A stretch of DNA of 30,380 nucleotides, taken from positions 1 through 30,380 of the IMG/VR virus record IMGVR_UViG_3300033153_001318; one strand, written 5' to 3'. The DNA comes from a virus. Each line of letters begins with the position of its first letter. Position 1 is the stretch's first letter. A program made the position numbers and the translations under genes. Positions 6,917 to 18,574 of this stretch are shown in pieces. A model generated the notes under the pieces. It saw nothing but the letters and a program-made list of their open reading frames with translations. It had not been told where the DNA came from and did no database searches.

Positions 6917-9900
6917 ATGCAAAGTCCATTATCATTTGACTCAACTGAAAACTTCAGAAAGAAGCTATTAGTAAAAAACTTAGAACCATATAATAGTGAT
7001 GGTTTTACCCCTGCCAGTCAACCAGGTCAGAGTCAAATAGATATTAACGATGTTGGAGTTATTGATTCACAAGAAGTGGAAACTATTGGTAGTACCGAGA
7101 ACACTTCTCTATATGTTAAAAATCAATATGGACCTGAAGGTGGTTTTGGTGAACCTAAGTCTATAGATGATGTAGGGTTTATTAATTCGGTGACGAGTTT
7201 TAATAATACTTTAAACCTTAATATGTCAAATGGTGTACCAGCATTGATAGGTAAAAGTCCTTACTATAATTTTGTTGCGTCTTCATATAATTCATTTAAT
7301 TTATTAACGAGTTCTAACCCACAGGGAGATAACGGACCACTTTCGCAAGATTCTGATTTAGCAAGAATTGCTGCGGAATCACTTAAAACAGAGTTTCAAT
7401 ATAGAATTTCCGAAGAAACTTACCAACAAACAATTGGTAGAGTTAATGCTTTAGACGCACTATCTGACCCATTTGAACTATTAGCAATTACAACAGGTAA
7501 TAGGTCAGTAATTGAAAGAGATTGGAAAATATCGGTACCAAAAGGATTAATTGGTAAAGGTTTAGATTTTATTAGCCGTATTAGTGGTGTATATTCCCCA
7601 TACTCTTGGATACCAGGTGACTACTTTAGTGACCAACCAAAACAAATGTATTTTAATCAAATAGCTAATTCTATTACGGGATTATTTGATAAAAGAGGAG
7701 TATTAGCATTACCTACAGAAAAAACAGGAATGCAAATATTCTTGGAAAATACGGGTGGAGGGCAAAGGTCAAGACTATTCAAAGGACTATCCTTAAACAG
7801 ATATATACCAGATTATAATAGAAATTTTCTAACTGATTTATTCACTAAAGTACCAAAGCAAAATTATTATGTAGGAAGTTCTCAACAGGAGATGAAAGAT
7901 ATTGTTGCACCTGCAGAATCTTTACCTTTAAATCAAGACGGAAATAAAGTTCAAACACCCGTTTATGGTTATGATGAGATTGCTAAAATCTATGAAAATG
8001 AACAAAAAGATAATACCTATAAGTTTGGGTTAAACCAAACATCCACATACGATGATGGAGGATTACAAGGTGGTTTTACATGGGTATCCCCTAAATACAA
8101 AGATAGGGCGGGTCAAAAAGTTGGTGTCGGAGCAGAGTTTTTTGGTACGATAGATACTGATTGGAATGAACAAGGGGTTCAAAACACATTTACTGCCACA
8201 CAATCAGTAGACGGTACAGGTGATTACAATTATACGCCTGGGTCCATACTTGATAATACTCAAAAATTAATTAACTCTGCTGACGAAGTTGTTGGTGTTA
8301 GAAAATTACAACACGTAGGTAATGCGATTGACCAAATCTCTAAAGTGTTTCATGACGGAACAAGAGAACTTACTAAAGGTTCACGAGTTATCGCGTACAG
8401 AGATGAGGGAGGGGCGATTGTAGGTAAAGAGTATTGTAGGGTCTTTACAAAAGACACTCCTTACTATTCTATGGCGGATTTACAAAAAACAGAAGGTATA
8501 ACAACCAACAATAGACGATTTACATATTCGGTTTTAGATAACACATATAACTTAAATATCGCACCTATGAGAGGTACAGATACTACTAATTTAACGGGAA
8601 ATGATTTTAGTAGTGAAGGAGTTAAAAAATATATGTTTTCAATAGAAAACTTAGCTTGGAGAACATCAAGAAAAAAAGGTTTTACTTATCAAGATTTACC
8701 ACATTGTGAACGAGGACCTAATGGTGGTAGAATTATGTGGTTCCCACCATATGATATGAAGGTAAACGAACAAAACTCTGCAAATTGGAACCAAAATGAA
8801 TTCTTAGGTCGACCTGAACCAATATACACGTATAATAATACAACAAGACAGGGAAGTTTAAGTTGGAAAATTGTTGTCGACCATCCCTCCGTATTAAATG
8901 CTATTGTTGACAAAGAATTGGCAAATGAAAGTAATAACAGTAAAGTTACGGGAATTGTTGATTCATTTTTTGCAGGATGTCGTAAATATGATATTTACGA
9001 ATTAGCGTTGAGATTTCCACAATTTACTTATAGTGACATTTATGAGATAGTTGTAAACTCTTCAGTTGGACAAGAAACAAAAGAATATTTTGACATTATT
9101 GATGCAGAAATACCTGGTGATTTAGATGTGACAACCGAAGAATATGAAGATAAAGTAGAGAGTACGGATTTTGATTTCGCTTATTATTTTCACAATGATG
9201 TTCCTGGACCACAGACTTCAACAGATACAACTACATCTGAAGTTTACAGCACTACTTTACAAAATTATATTGGTTTACAGACAGAATATAGTAATACCGC
9301 AAATGCCGATGAAAAAAACAATGTAAATCAGTTTTTTATAGATAATATTTTAACAAGTTCGGATTCGGGTGTGTTATATAAAACACAATTATTTGTTAAA
9401 AAAGTTGGTGAAGCATTAAATGCGGGGGCAACAGTTCAAGTTTTATTACAGGGCTCAGCGTCATCACCTAATTCAGTTGTCTATAATAATGCTTTATCTA
9501 AAAGAAGGATTGATAGTGTAAAAAAATATTTATTACCCTTGATGGATGAAAATCAAAAGTCTTTACAGAAGTGGGTGGATGATGGAAAACTTATTATAAA
9601 GGAAGACCCTAAAGGTGAACAAACAAATATACAAGGGACAGACTGTACAAAAGACTTAGTTGGTAATGATAAAATTTATTCGGTAGATGCCATGAAGTGT
9701 AGAAGGGTTAGGATAAGTTCAGTAGTTGAGACACCACCACCACCCGAAGAAGATAAGGTTACCGATGAAATAACAAACCCACCTGAAATAGATACGGAGA
9801 CACAAACCGCTAGACCCGCTCAGCCGGTAATTACACTCAGTGAGAAAGTGGAACAACAAAAAGAAGAAGTTGCAAAAATAATCGTAAGAAAATTGTTAAC

Positions 9901-11682: not shown

Positions 11683-12000
11683 ATGAGATATTGGAATAGA
11701 TATACAGATTTTTTGGTTAACGGACAACAAACAGTTGTACCATTTGTTAATATACCTTCTAAACCATCAGATAAAAGATTTATCTTTAGGACGGGACGTA
11801 GTAGGTTAGATAAAATAAGTTACGAATTTTATGAGTCACCATATTTTGGTTGGTTAATACTAGCTGCAAATCCTCAATACGGAGGATTAGAGTCAAATAT
11901 CCCTGATAATGCATTACTTTTTATCCCGTTCCCTTTGACTAATTCTTTACAGGATTATAAAGCTGCGGTAGAAAATCATTTCTTCTATTATGGCAGATAA
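11683..12000 (+). CDS. gp53: Baseplate wedge protein, gp53-like (LysM-type fold)
   Basis: This 105-aa protein matches the conserved half of T4 gp53, a wedge subunit that helps join wedges around the hub. Motifs are RSRLDKISYEFY, then SPYFGWLILAANPQYGG, then IPDNALLFIPFPL. This is the LysM-like pattern seen in gp53 and in P2 gpX-type tail proteins. It is shorter than T4 gp53 (196 aa) and lacks its C-terminal part. It begins 2 bases after the stop of the preceding giant gene and overlaps the next gene by 11 bases, so the three genes are almost certainly co-transcribed and translationally coupled. Confidence 0.82.
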   Translation: MRYWNRYTDFLVNGQQTVVPFVNIPSKPSDKRFIFRTGRSRLDKISYEFYESPYFGWLILAANPQYGGLESNIPDNALLFIPFPLTNSLQDYKAAVENHFFYYGR

Positions 12001-15000
12001 CAAATTTTTCGGTAATGAAAAGGTCTATGTGGAAACTGATTATGATAACGTAATAGTTGTAGACCCCAATAAAGTGGTAAATTCTGATGGAACAGTACAA
12101 GAACGTAATGTTAAACAAGAAAATTTAATCACCTACGCTAATTTAGAGGCGAGAGTTATTCCTAGAACAAAACTCGCGATAGGTTCTAATTATGATGATA
12201 GTGTAAAAAATGTGGGAGTAGCACAACTTAAAGTTAATTTTTTAGAAGGTAGAGCTCAAGCTCAAAAAGAACCAAATGTTAATTTAGGGGGCGATGATTC
12301 AAATGACCCTAAATATTTTGATACTTCATGGACAGACCAGTTCTTACCGGGTAAAAATGCCGAAGACTCAACAAACGATATATTTAGTTCAGGTAGAGGA
12401 GTAGACACTCAATTGTTAGGGATTACCCGTATTAATGTAAAAATGAATCCAGCATTTGTTCCTACAGTCACAATTGAAATGACAGATGTACAAGGTAGGG
12501 TGTTATTTGAAAGAGGAGACCAATCTCCGTATTCCATTTTCATGCATCTACCATATCCGATTTTTATTTTAACCATAAAAGGACATTATGGTAAGGCAAT
12601 AAAATTAGAGTTAATATTAAAAGATTTTAATGCTAGATTTGACCCATCAGACGGAAGTTATAAGATTACTACCTCTTATGTTGCCAAATCACACGCCTTT
12701 TTACAAGACACATTATTAGATTATATTTACACAACTCCTCATATGTACCCTAAAACGTATGAATTAGATAATAATTCTCCTGGAACATCAGATGGTACAG
12801 TTGGGGTAAATAAGATTGAGACTACCAAAGGAATGCAGAAGATAAAAGAGGTCTACTCTTTGTATAAATCCAAAGGGTTAATTGATGATGACTTTCCTGA
12901 AATCACAATGAATCAAATGAGGATGAGGTTAGAGTATTTTAATCGATATGTAATGGAGGCGTATTCTAAAGAAGATATGTCAGTTCTTAATAATATTGTG
13001 GAGTATGAAAAGAATATTACAACATATCGAAAAAAAGTTTATCCTACTTTAAATGAAAATTGGTTTGATACATATATAGACCCGTCCTCTATATACGCTT
13101 TAAACGATACAAAATCATCGGTAATATACGGGTTTAAAAAAGAAATAAAAGAACAAGGAAGAAAAACGGCGTTATCTAAATTAAAAGGTATAATAGATGA
13201 AGGAAACCAAAGTCTAAAGAATAACCCTACATTTTATAAACCTGGTAAATATGAGATAGAAGGTAAGGATTATCCTGCTGAAATATCAGTTAATATAAAG
13301 GCAAGTGATTTGACGGTTCTAATTGATGACCCTGAAACTATTGATTACAAAACTACATATATTTTAAGAAAAGGAAGTGAACCAACACAGAGTGAATTAG
13401 AAGCATTTGAAACCAAACTTAAGGCGGATTTTAAACTCGCTTCTAAGTCATATTATATTGGTCCTGATGGTGAAATAACTGAAAATGAAGATGGTTCAGT
13501 TTTAATAAAATTTGGTAATGTTATAAAAGATAAAAACTTCGCAACGGGAACTTTTTTAGCTAAGTTGGCTAAGATTGAAAATACTTTTAAAGAAAAGAAA
13601 GAAACTATTGAAAAACAGTTGTCGGAAGCATTATCTAAAAAAATAATTAATTCTGATATTGGTTTAGGTTTCAACCCAACCATAAACAATGTTATGGCGG
13701 TAATTTGTGCAAACGCGGAAGCTTTTTATAGGTTAATGGATGAAACACATCAAGCGGCTTGGAATGTAAGAACGGATAAGACTCGTTTAAGTGCTATTAT
13801 ACCACCCGAAAAATCTTTTGGTGTTGACGGTAAAAATATGTTAGACCAAGTAACTATAGGTGGTTCCACAGGTAATACACTACAAAATACCGCAATAGTA
13901 TATCCTTGGCCGCAATATTTTGAGGAAGAAATTGATGAAGATAACAATACTAAATATACTTTAAAATATCCTGGTCAACCAAGTGTAATTTCAACGATTA
14001 AGGGATACGACTACTCTATATGGCCTGAAATTCAATTTACTGAAGAATATATAACTGCGTCATTAGAAAGGGACAAACCGAAAGTTAATATAAACTATGG
14101 AAACCAAAAACAAGTATCAAAATATATTGGAGTAAATGCCGTGGAATTTCCTTTCGAAAACCACCCATATGTCAATGAAGAAGCTGTATCATTTTTTTAT
14201 GAAATATTTGAACGTACATATTTAAGTTCAAATTACAGTAAAGTAGTTAGAAACAATAATTTTAGAAAAAGTTTATATACGGTCTTAGCGGACTTTGAAT
14301 CTGTAAACATAAAAGAAGGGTTAAACGATAGTCCACAACTTACAAAAACATTTAAAGAGTTTAAGTTTAATTCATCAATATTTAATAGTTATTTATCATC
14401 AATATCTAACGGAGGACAGGGAAGTTTTTGGGCGAGAAAGGTTAGAGACATCTATACTCAAAATTATATTAAAGGATATATTGATGTAGATTTTGGGATT
14501 TATAGTATAGAAAGTATGTCTACAAGTTCAACTGATTTAATATCATCGGTTGAGTCTATTAAACAATTAGAAGATTATATTAGTGGTACCTCATCAAATG
14601 CCACAACATTAATGGATGTTTTTCCATTTAATAATTTAGATTGGTTACAAAAAAATGTAGCAGATGGTGTTAGTATTGGTAGTGTAGATAAGGCTAATAG
14701 TACTACAGATGTTATGAATTTTAATATATTAAAAAAGAGTTTTGCGACATTTGATGATGAAACAGATAAAGATGAGAGATATTTAAATAGGTATTTAACT
14801 TATTTTCAGTATGAAAAAAATAAACCTGCAGCCCCTAATCAAAACACTAGTAACTCAAGTGATAGTACTCAATATAACACTAATGACCAAGTTAAGACTT
14901 ATTACAATAATAGAGAAAATAAAGATTTTTATTTAACAGAAAGTCCATTAGATTATGGGACAAATTATGATGAAGCAACAAATAATTTAACATCATTACA

Positions 15001-18000
15001 AACTACTTCCCTTTTGAATACTCCTTATTTTATTAACGCACTTTTAAAAGGGGTTTCAGGAGAGACGTTTTCTCAAGAAAACCCATACGTTGGTTTAGGT
15101 TATTTATATTTAAATTCACTACCGTTACCAACACTTAGCGAAAAATACTTAACACGTAATGAATCCAATAGTGGGGTTAATACTACTAAATGGGGAGATT
15201 ATTTTTATGCGGGACTTAGTAAATTTGCTGCAATACATAAGATACCTTACCTTTGGTTACTGAAATATGGTTCAGTATGGCATCGATATAAAGAAGATAA
15301 GAAGGGTAATGGAGACATTTTAAATGGTATATGGAAAGACTTTAATTATGTAAATGCTTATGACCCAATAACTAATAATATAAATAAAGTATATAATGTA
15401 CAAAATTATACGGGGGGGACTATGTCTTACGTTCCTCAAAAGACCGATATAGTACCGGGAATAATACCTAACGTTGCAAATCCAACGTTACCTGGAACTC
15501 CTGTTAACTTTAATTATCAATTTACTAAAAATGGTTTTTACCCTAAAGTAGTAAATGACACTTATAAATTTTTTACTGGTAAATCGCCTTTAATTAATTA
15601 TGATGGGGGTGAAATAAATGACCTTTTCAATAATGGTAATTTTAAATTAGGTCAATCACAGACAAATTTCTTACCTGTAGGATATGACCAAGATAATGTC
15701 CTTAATACTTTAACTTATAGTAGTTACTTTCAGTATTTTGACCTTGAGGGTAATACGAGTTTTGATGAAGAAGACTCAACAGGTAGATTATTAATTATAC
15801 CGTCTTCAGGTTATTTGAAATTTACACAGGCACAAAGGGAGTGTCTTAATTCACAAGGACATCTAAAACAAAACATAGATATTAATAATAAATCTATACA
15901 AAATGGTAATGTGAGACCGTTATGGGGAGCATCTAATTTTGGATATTTTAATAACCAATGGGTTAAAAAACCTAAAACAAACGAATATATTAAATATATT
16001 GATAGTGAAGAGAACCAACAAAATGCATTTAATTTATTAAATAAAGATAGCGAAGAGGAATATAAATCAATAGAAGAAATATTTGCTATTTTTTCAAAAG
16101 AAATGTTAGATGAGTTCGAAAGACATTTTTTAAACTTTTGTAAAAAAGAAAAAGATTATCAGTCTTTAGTTTTTAATCCTTCAGAGGTAAATGATAACGA
16201 ATATTTAGGTTCATTTAATGTGGAATATGACTATAATATTGAAAGGGCTATGAAGTCTTTATTAATAGTTAATAAACCTACATTAACAGATAATCCTGAA
16301 AAAGACGTAAAGACCATATCTGATTCACAATTAGATAATTTTGTTAATTTAAATAGAACACAAATATCCGAAAGAGATATAATATTAAAGATAGGTAATC
16401 CAGGTAGATTTAATAGACGAGTGTTTGACTCTTTTTCAACTAATGAAACTATAATACCTACAGACCCAATAAATTTTGACACTTATGTTAATGAAACAGT
16501 TCCCACATCAACAGGATTAGTGACCCTTTCATCAAGTCAGATAAATAATCCTGAAGCATGGGATGCTCTTTATGATTATGTTGGAGAATATGTTGAAGAC
16601 GGCATGGTATATTCTGACAACGGTTCTTATATTACCGATTTTTTCCCAACTATGGACATAAGATTTAATGAGGAAAATGTTAAGAGTTTATCTCAAATAA
16701 TAAAAGTCTTCGCCACTCAAAAATATAATAATAACAACTTAACTAAAAGTGATTTCCAACAAACGTTTGAAAGTTTTCTATCAGAACAAATAACATTTCA
16801 AAATGATATGTTAAATCAAATTTTTACAAAACTTAACAAAACTTTACCTTCAGTTAAAGTTAATGCCACCCAAACAAGAATTTCTAAATTAGACGGGGAT
16901 ACGAATAAAAATGAATTATGGTCAACCTTTAAAACGTTTAATGATAGATGGATATCCGGTCAAGACGTTAAAAATAAAACATTATTTGAACAATTTTTAT
17001 TCATGGATAAAGCGAATAGGCCTATTGGTGATAAAGTGGTTATTAATATTGAAGATTTAAGAAGTGCGTTAAAAACCGCTAATGCGTCAGCAAGTGTACT
17101 ATCACTATTAGGAACCATATTAGAAAAAAATAATTTTATATTTATGCCTACTCCTTCCTATTCTAATTTTTATGGTAGGAATTTAAGAGTTAAGGAAGGT
17201 ATGCCTGACCCTTCATTTGATGATATTGGTAATAATACATTTGGTACATTTTTAGAAGTGGATACTCATGGTTCCGAACCTAAATTTTTAGCGATATATG
17301 TTGGTGAAGTTTCAAAAACTTTTAATACTTCACCTGAAAACGATAACTATCTTTATGGTGACGATTCCTTTGATATTACTAAACCTTCACTATCTCCTTT
17401 ACGCTCGTCTTTAGATGGAGTTAGTAATTTTTCAAATAGAAATAAAGTGGTAGCATTTAACGTAGATTTTGGGGTACAAAATCAACAAATCTTTAAATCA
17501 ATATCAATTGATATGTCACAAAGAAAAAACATTGCGCCGACATTCCAAATACTTGCAGACATGGGGTCTATGGCAGATGGTCAAAAAGTATCTCAAGAAA
17601 CTGCTAATTTATATAACTTCTATAAGAGTGCTAGTTATAATTGTAGTGTAACCTCAATGGGGAATGCAATGATACAACCAACAATGTACTTTAATTTAAG
17701 ATACGTCCCAATGTTTTATGGTCCATACTTAATTACAAGTGTAACTCACGATATAACTACGAGAGATTTTCAAACATCATTCGAAGGGGTGAGAACAAGT
17801 AAATATTCTTTACAAATGCCAGACGGATTAATCGCTAGTGTTAATAGAGATATTGTTCAAAATTACTTATCTGAAATAAGAAGAGTACCCTCATTAGGTA
17901 ATTCTACGGGTAATACATTAACTAGAAGTAACTATATTAAAAACAGTTCATCTAAAACGAACGCTAAAAGGCAGGGACAATCAACTAAATGTGTGGCGGT

Positions 18001-18574
18001 ACAAAATTTAGATAAACCATATGACGATATTAAACAAACACAAATAAATCAAACTCAATTTAAAAATGGGGTACAACAAATTAGTTTGAGTGAAAATGTT
18101 AAAAAGTTTATATATGGTGTTGGATATGTTGAAACAGGTGTTGGTAAAAATTTAAAATCATTAAATAGTAATTACTTTAATTTAAAAAATATGAAAAGTA
18201 ATGAAAGATGGACAGTAAATTTTGATAAACAAACATGTGTACAGGATGGTGAGTACGTGGTACCGTACCTTTCTTTTGAAGATGCAGGAGATTCAATAGA
18301 ATTTATGGCTAAAGTTTGTGACCAATTCGCACCAATAATTGACGCGTTTTTAGTAAATAATCAAATTAATGGTGATTTGGCGAAAAGTTTTGCTTATCTA
18401 TGGTATTATACGTTTAGATTTACTACATTAGATAAAGAATTAAACGCGGGAAGTAATGTTGATGACTCAATAATCGCGGCTGTTGATTTAGATATAAAAA
18501 ATGATTCGGTATCAAAAAAATTATTCAATGATTCAATAAAAACATTTAAAACTTCAAATGAGTCTTGGAGTTAA
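11990..18574 (+). CDS. Giant baseplate hub protein with C-terminal lysin-like domain
   Basis: This 2194-aa protein begins inside the end of gp53. The N-terminal part (about 125-240) has a beta-rich domain with TVTIEMTDVQGRVLFERG and a GHYGKAIKLELILKDF strand pair. Residues about 1835-1945 resemble the gp27/VgrG/late-control-D hub fold: IAPTFQI, SVTSMGNAMIQPTMYF, then FYGPYLITSVTHDIT and FQTSFEGVR. The C-terminus (about 2030-2194) looks like a glucosaminidase (GH73) or lysozyme-like domain: GYVETGVG with candidate catalytic E2048, then LNSNYFNLKNM. In T4 the hub (gp27) and lysozyme (gp5) are separate proteins, so this may be their functional fusion for cutting peptidoglycan during injection. 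Much of residues 250-1800 is not recognised. The fusion role is inference; baseplate membership is likely. Confidence 0.7.
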   Translation: MADNKFFGNEKVYVETDYDNVIVVDPNKVVNSDGTVQERNVKQENLITYANLEARVIPRTKLAIGSNYDDSVKNVGVAQLKVNFLEGRAQAQKEPNVNLGGDDSNDPKYFDTSWTDQFLPGKNAEDSTNDIFSSGRGVDTQLLGITRINVKMNPAFVPTVTIEMTDVQGRVLFERGDQSPYSIFMHLPYPIFILTIKGHYGKAIKLELILKDFNARFDPSDGSYKITTSYVAKSHAFLQDTLLDYIYTTPHMYPKTYELDNNSPGTSDGTVGVNKIETTKGMQKIKEVYSLYKSKGLIDDDFPEITMNQMRMRLEYFNRYVMEAYSKEDMSVLNNIVEYEKNITTYRKKVYPTLNENWFDTYIDPSSIYALNDTKSSVIYGFKKEIKEQGRKTALSKLKGIIDEGNQSLKNNPTFYKPGKYEIEGKDYPAEISVNIKASDLTVLIDDPETIDYKTTYILRKGSEPTQSELEAFETKLKADFKLASKSYYIGPDGEITENEDGSVLIKFGNVIKDKNFATGTFLAKLAKIENTFKEKKETIEKQLSEALSKKIINSDIGLGFNPTINNVMAVICANAEAFYRLMDETHQAAWNVRTDKTRLSAIIPPEKSFGVDGKNMLDQVTIGGSTGNTLQNTAIVYPWPQYFEEEIDEDNNTKYTLKYPGQPSVISTIKGYDYSIWPEIQFTEEYITASLERDKPKVNINYGNQKQVSKYIGVNAVEFPFENHPYVNEEAVSFFYEIFERTYLSSNYSKVVRNNNFRKSLYTVLADFESVNIKEGLNDSPQLTKTFKEFKFNSSIFNSYLSSISNGGQGSFWARKVRDIYTQNYIKGYIDVDFGIYSIESMSTSSTDLISSVESIKQLEDYISGTSSNATTLMDVFPFNNLDWLQKNVADGVSIGSVDKANSTTDVMNFNILKKSFATFDDETDKDERYLNRYLTYFQYEKNKPAAPNQNTSNSSDSTQYNTNDQVKTYYNNRENKDFYLTESPLDYGTNYDEATNNLTSLQTTSLLNTPYFINALLKGVSGETFSQENPYVGLGYLYLNSLPLPTLSEKYLTRNESNSGVNTTKWGDYFYAGLSKFAAIHKIPYLWLLKYGSVWHRYKEDKKGNGDILNGIWKDFNYVNAYDPITNNINKVYNVQNYTGGTMSYVPQKTDIVPGIIPNVANPTLPGTPVNFNYQFTKNGFYPKVVNDTYKFFTGKSPLINYDGGEINDLFNNGNFKLGQSQTNFLPVGYDQDNVLNTLTYSSYFQYFDLEGNTSFDEEDSTGRLLIIPSSGYLKFTQAQRECLNSQGHLKQNIDINNKSIQNGNVRPLWGASNFGYFNNQWVKKPKTNEYIKYIDSEENQQNAFNLLNKDSEEEYKSIEEIFAIFSKEMLDEFERHFLNFCKKEKDYQSLVFNPSEVNDNEYLGSFNVEYDYNIERAMKSLLIVNKPTLTDNPEKDVKTISDSQLDNFVNLNRTQISERDIILKIGNPGRFNRRVFDSFSTNETIIPTDPINFDTYVNETVPTSTGLVTLSSSQINNPEAWDALYDYVGEYVEDGMVYSDNGSYITDFFPTMDIRFNEENVKSLSQIIKVFATQKYNNNNLTKSDFQQTFESFLSEQITFQNDMLNQIFTKLNKTLPSVKVNATQTRISKLDGDTNKNELWSTFKTFNDRWISGQDVKNKTLFEQFLFMDKANRPIGDKVVINIEDLRSALKTANASASVLSLLGTILEKNNFIFMPTPSYSNFYGRNLRVKEGMPDPSFDDIGNNTFGTFLEVDTHGSEPKFLAIYVGEVSKTFNTSPENDNYLYGDDSFDITKPSLSPLRSSLDGVSNFSNRNKVVAFNVDFGVQNQQIFKSISIDMSQRKNIAPTFQILADMGSMADGQKVSQETANLYNFYKSASYNCSVTSMGNAMIQPTMYFNLRYVPMFYGPYLITSVTHDITTRDFQTSFEGVRTSKYSLQMPDGLIASVNRDIVQNYLSEIRRVPSLGNSTGNTLTRSNYIKNSSSKTNAKRQGQSTKCVAVQNLDKPYDDIKQTQINQTQFKNGVQQISLSENVKKFIYGVGYVETGVGKNLKSLNSNYFNLKNMKSNERWTVNFDKQTCVQDGEYVVPYLSFEDAGDSIEFMAKVCDQFAPIIDAFLVNNQINGDLAKSFAYLWYYTFRFTTLDKELNAGSNVDDSIIAAVDLDIKNDSVSKKLFNDSIKTFKTSNESWS

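Follow-up and report, generated by a model that had tools for sequence, protein, structure and literature searches.

A very large gp27-type baseplate hub with a GH73-like C-terminal domain in a family of contractile-tailed viruses

We found that the gene at 11990..18574 (+) of the window, by which we mean the whole 30,380-base virus record analysed here, encodes a 2194-aa protein (P0001) that is the central hub of a contractile T4-like tail, and that this protein is a very large form of the gp27-type hub, new in its size. We consider it probable that the protein joins a contractile-tail hub to a helical insert and to a GH73-like C-terminal domain, that this domain is catalytic in the phage of the window and non-catalytic in most relatives, and that the spike is a separate protein.

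The 2194-aa reading frame contains no internal stop over 11990-18574 (+), and its start overlaps the end of the preceding 105-aa gene by 11 bases. A scan of IMG/VR returned at least 597 stretches encoding relatives of the hub, of which at least 78 distinct loci were kept, and among the matches listed nearly all full-length relatives measure about 2100-2310 aa, with identity to the window protein falling to about 33%. Because relatives of such regular length occur at so many loci, the length of the frame is not a matter of chance, and a gene fusion or an assembly artefact is ruled out by the constant length and gene order across dozens of independent contigs. Furthermore, the gene is under purifying selection: dN/dS against three relatives lies between 0.03 and 0.20 in all regions where it could be computed, with minima at residues 131-275 and 1741-1950, and the C-terminal domain is the fastest-evolving part of the protein. 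The frame, first proposed from the sequence alone, is therefore a real gene, being uninterrupted, selected and member of a large family.

Outside these environmental contigs the family was not encountered. No hub relative was found among 50,697 isolate phage records, where a second family member and the neighbouring protein P0003 also returned nothing as queries, and none was found in a scan of bacterial genomes. Scans of the whole protein against PHROGs, Pfam, the PDB and isolate phages gave no match, and PHROGs recognise the window hub only when the scan is restricted to residues 1800-1950. Neither the domain libraries nor the isolate phages searched contain hubs of this size, which are common among environmental viral contigs. 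In several clades about 100-400 extra residues follow the GH73-like domain (hubs L035, L051, L065, L077, L130, L144 and others), and two family members match the TIG/IPT (Ig-like) family.

The gene content of the window is that of a T4-like contractile phage. Sheath, tube and a baseplate hub component (phrog_150) are followed by a putative tape-measure protein, by the genes that we label P0003 and P0004 as presumed baseplate components, and by the hub gene, which sits in this baseplate cluster after tube and tape measure. Downstream lie genes for SSB, UvsX, an exonuclease, DnaB and ribonucleotide reductase, together with a gp25-like and a gp6-like baseplate wedge protein, and the 30-kb window is probably a fragment of a larger genome. 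The order sheath, tube, gp26-like protein, tape-measure-like protein, P0003, P0004 and hub is mirrored in the Flavobacterium phage vB_FspM_immuto_2-6A (immuto) and in the Microcystis phage Mel-JY01. Comparison of the window hub with the hubs of these two phages detected no sequence similarity, so their identification as hubs relies on synteny and motif. A GC content of 32%, Shine-Dalgarno-like leaders at only 1 of 19 genes and the presence of Flavobacterium phages among the nearest sheath relatives suggest a host among the Bacteroidota.

The C-terminal part of the protein belongs to the gp27-type hub superfamily. When the scan is confined to residues 1800-1950, phrog_196 'baseplate hub' is found at residues 1883-1939 (E 3.1e-5), the scanned segment also matches phrog_52 'tail protein', and across the family phrog_52 is matched by 27 of 45 members and phrog_196 by 20 of 45. 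A model of residues 1150-2194, built from 77 sequences and of moderate confidence (pLDDT 72, pTM 0.35), was compared with the PDB, and the top matches are almost entirely of one kind, contractile hubs: the pyocin R2 hub, phage P1, AlgoCIS, VgrG, Mu gp44 and T4 gp27. These matches have probabilities of 0.9-1.0 and modest E-values, the best being 6e-3 and none reaching 0.001. Among the BFVD matches, which comprise hubs and tail lysins, the best named structural relative is A0A8S5LAH1 of Myoviridae sp. ctPuP5, labelled 'Lysozyme' in the database (E 5.5e-20), a distant relative that aligns over 678 columns at 19% identity. Profile searches against the PDB gave only chance matches (VPS35, LEDGF) for the C-terminal half and the hub segment, and nothing for the N-terminal half and the C-terminal domain. 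From the fold search, phrog_196 and phrog_52 we place the second hub barrel region at residues 1741-1945 (17210..17824, +), which includes the most conserved block of the family alignment, residues 1876-1935 (17615..17794, +; GNxMIQPTMYFNL..VP.F.G.Y.I..V.H.I...F.T...G.R). The tail hub that the sequence-only reading had seen near residues 1835-1945 is upheld by phrog_196, by the fold search and by synteny.

A first gp27-type tube barrel is suggested near residues 140-260 (approximately 12407..12769, +). Its placement follows from the beta-strands at 143-260 in a model of residues 1-1165, again of moderate confidence (pLDDT 72, pTM 0.45), and from the low dN/dS of this region. Against the PDB the N-terminal half gives weak matches to hubs, tail terminators, Hcp and tube proteins, the best usable one being the phiTE baseplate (9cuy_X, probability 0.97), while a PHROG scan of residues 125-262 of the window protein was empty, with no convincing family match. 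Profile comparison detected no homology between the two putative barrels, as is also expected from the 4% identity between those of gp27 (PMC3004832).

According to the models, about 1480 mostly helical residues of no recognised fold would separate the two barrels. This insert (residues 261-1740; 12770..17209, +) has no PHROG, Pfam or PDB family match, which bears out the earlier statement that about 1500 residues are unrecognised. It appears to belong to this hub lineage, because the syntenic hubs of Mel-JY01 and immuto measure 671 and 938 aa, and it probably forms a large baseplate collar around the hub. The middle region could instead add further baseplate roles, such as wedge contacts or fibre docking, rather than a free-standing collar; the shortness of these syntenic hubs, the low dN/dS and a length that holds at 2.1-2.3 thousand aa while identity declines to about 33% would all suit such roles, but the region matches no wedge, fibre or other baseplate family and the wedge genes gp25 and gp6 stand separately in the window, and we regard this alternative as rather unlikely.

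A collar would not be the only enlargement in this baseplate. P0003 (6917..11680, +), a 1587-aa baseplate protein with relatives at 87 of 92 loci, carries an OmpA-like insert near its residues 800-900 (about 9314-9616), and 16 of 25 members of its family match OmpA (PF00691), with a best E of 4.3e-6. The OmpA family is peptidoglycan-binding, and by analogy the domain in P0003 probably binds peptidoglycan too. Two baseplate proteins of one phage, the hub and P0003, are thus both enlarged by inserts, one of which is probably peptidoglycan-binding. Position, and a visual match to a 716-aa protein of immuto, suggest that P0003 is possibly a tube-baseplate connector (gp48/gp54-like). A YNxxLSxRRIDSV motif lies in its OmpA-family domain, and some of its relatives reach 2000-2350 aa where about 1600 is usual. 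Mel-JY01 (L080, 25983-32750) encodes at the P0003 position an unannotated 2255-aa protein, directly upstream of a gene of 112-115 aa, and tail proteins of increased size may often occupy this place. Between P0003 and the hub lies P0004 (11683..12000, +), a small baseplate gene of 105 aa that is found at 91 of 92 loci, immediately precedes the hub gene in all 91 and has equivalents in immuto and Mel-JY01.

The arrangement of the hub can be compared with several known systems. T4 gp27 carries no enzyme, and the T4 lysozyme is part of gp5, where it lies between the OB fold and the beta-helix. The window hub resembles gp27, which is among its structural matches, in occupying the centre of a contractile baseplate and in having two tube-like barrels far apart in sequence (the first of them putative); it differs in the about 1480 residues between the barrels and in the GH73-like domain that follows the hub. 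The T4 protein is 44 kDa in size, with barrels formed by residues 2-111 and by 207-239 plus 307-368 (PMC3004832). A hub and a C-terminal hydrolase-like domain in one chain are also found in the Tal hubs of Gram-positive phages: Tal (gp59) of phage 80alpha is a gp27-like trimeric hub of 633 aa whose hub domain of about 350 residues is followed by a putative cell-wall hydrolase of the GDSL/SGNH type (PMC7048315), whereas the window hub comes from a contractile phage, measures 2194 aa and ends in a GH73-like domain. In immuto, gp033 (YP_010114650.1) sits at the corresponding place in the gene order, preceded by tube, tape measure, a large baseplate protein and a gene of about 100 aa, and has a C-terminal peptidoglycan-hydrolase domain (VanY, E 6.6e-10); it differs from the window hub in its 938 aa and in bearing a VanY/M15 peptidase in place of the GH73-like domain. 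The contrast with T4 drawn earlier is less striking than it seemed, given that fusions of a gp27-like hub to a C-terminal hydrolase are known from 80alpha and, judging by synteny, from immuto.

The C-terminal domain (residues 2001-2194; 17990..18571, +) is supported as GH73-like at the level of motif. In the window clade a GH73-type motif, E-[ST]-G followed by N-x-N-x-F-x-x-K, is present with small differences in downstream spacing, and in the window protein E2048 (codon 18131..18133, +) stands in the context V-E-T-G-(x8)-N-x-N-x-F-x-L-K. Four of 10 close relatives hit the Pfam family PF01832 (Glucosaminidase), all of them below the curated cut-off (best E 0.0029); one sequence in the wider hub set also gives a hit, and the window protein gives none. 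We do not claim GH73 membership, because this cut-off is not reached. When profiles are compared, the resemblance to GH73 is weak: the best probability is 10%, and one pair reaches E 0.003. The domain is modelled with a pLDDT mostly of 80-90 within the 1150-2194 model, and the top 50 PDB matches of that whole model include no lysozyme or GH73 fold. Of the two folds that had been expected, the hub was recovered by the fold search of the C-terminal half, and the proposed GH73- or lysozyme-like C-terminus is supported by its motif with E2048.

An internal comparison is provided by a 162-kb relative, the hub of which is 73% identical to that of the window and which has, in addition, a gene for a free-standing 192-aa protein that exceeds the PF01832 cut-off. 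Alignment puts the catalytic-motif Glu of this genuine GH73 protein onto E2048, and the N/N/F/K positions align as well. The 192-aa protein (L179, 1477-2052, -) has an N-terminal hydrophobic segment, is widespread in IMG/VR and is probably a signal-anchor endolysin. Its relatives supply a control of 46 distinct GH73 lysins, in all of which (46/46) the Glu, the two Asn and the Phe are present; this set covers less diversity than the hub family, and the comparison is limited accordingly.

Next to this control, the hub family is divided. E2048 is present in all 10 sequences of the window clade, where pairwise identity falls to 30%, and V2047, G2050, N2059, N2061 and N2064-N2067 (K2066 included) are likewise invariant. 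Across 89 family members position 2048 holds Glu in 22, Arg in 21, Asn in 16 and a different residue in the remaining members, so that the GH73 Glu motif is absent from 67 of 89. Misalignment does not explain this absence, because only 4 of the 67 have any Glu within four residues of the position. In the hub-core tree the position changes state 8 times, at least 7 of these changes being forced by well-supported branches, with the tree giving no direction. The residues that are constant throughout the family are C2083 (89/89; codon 18236..18238, +), F2096 (89/89) and C2001 (87/89; codon 17990..17992, +), possibly the disulphide partner of C2083, together with N2061 and P2092; no acidic position of the C-terminal domain is conserved across the 89 members.

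Lysin activity is therefore not a property of the family, E2048 being absent from most of it. The earlier proposal of E2048 as catalytic residue remains plausible for the window clade and does not extend to the other members. Judging from these residues, the domain is probably an active tail lysin in the window phage and its close relatives and non-catalytic in most other relatives, and our reading is that it would have a second conserved role with no need for catalysis. Where the Glu is absent, it is probably kept as a disulphide-stabilised cell-wall-binding or structural domain. An alternative is that the domain lacks catalysis in every member, the window phage included, that common descent or a structural need preserves E2048, and that the domain only attaches to the cell wall or serves as a plug of the hub. 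Absence of the Glu from 67 of 89 members, the at least 7 changes in the tree, family-wide constants that comprise two Cys, N2061, P2092 and F2096 and no acid, the fast evolution of the domain and the OmpA-like, probably peptidoglycan-binding domain of neighbouring P0003 all fit this alternative, but E2048, G2050, N2059, N2061 and K2066 are invariant in the window clade despite 30% pairwise identity, the same constancy of residues as in real GH73 enzymes, and we judge it somewhat unlikely. We thus retain the reading of a lysin in the window clade and a non-catalytic domain in most other hubs.

The protein had also been proposed to be a one-protein puncturing device. Unlike a spike-lysozyme of the T4 gp5 type, the window hub has no OB fold or beta-helix match beside its lysin-like domain, and PHROG, Pfam and PDB fold searches found no spike in the hub chain. 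A separate protein of about 520 aa is encoded in 7 of 8 large related contigs; it starts with D-N-x-D-P-x-x-L-G-R-[IL]-R or a close variant, and shows weak similarity to Phage_base_V (the gp5 OB fold), seen in two relatives and below the Pfam cut-off. Scanned individually, its members matched neither a PHROG nor an OB-fold Pfam family. Among the contigs carrying it are those of L004 and L007, which are closely related to the window and have the closest hubs tested. From these sequence features, we tentatively regard it as the likely membrane spike, separate from the hub. That hub, spike and lysin all reside in one chain with no separate spike seems highly unlikely: the hub and the GH73-like domain do share a chain, about 1480 residues have no assigned fold and no spike gene is seen within the 30-kb window, but the window is a fragment, the hub gives no spike or beta-helix signal and the separate candidate accompanies even the closest hubs tested. 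The one-protein device is accordingly not supported, and a hub with a separate spike is preferred. One relative has a PAAR match, but this falls in a proline/threonine-repeat protein and was not accepted as a spike. In the record of L144 the OB-like protein of about 520 aa is matched in two pieces (L187/L188), the first with one in-frame TAG; recoding of the stop, an insertion or an error in sequencing might account for it.

Under the preferred reading, the hub would act as a trimer whose two tube-like barrels, the C-terminal one observed in the fold search and the N-terminal one putative, prolong the six-fold tail tube and carry the spike, as in gp27, VgrG and Tal hubs. The helical insert of some 1480 residues would form a collar of the baseplate round the hub. 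Contraction would push tube, hub and spike through the outer membrane, and the GH73-like domains, carried on a flexible linker after the hub, could then reach the peptidoglycan in the periplasm. In the window clade the domain would cut the glycan strands by means of E2048, and in clades that lack the Glu the domain and the OmpA-like domain of P0003 may only hold the peptidoglycan.

Taken together, these elements allow the broader proposal that the hub family has repeatedly converted a C-terminal glucosaminidase into a non-catalytic docking domain, which with the OmpA-like domain of P0003 anchors the baseplate, and that the insert is a new collar; as a joint claim we hold this to be possible and, on balance, doubtful. 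If it is true, the baseplate would be anchored to peptidoglycan during infection by the hub C-terminus and the OmpA-like domain of P0003 in a widespread uncultured family. The family constitutes a natural series: the hub is otherwise conserved, the lysin position has switched several times to or from Glu, and because both states are on offer, whether a tail lysin must be an enzyme becomes directly testable.
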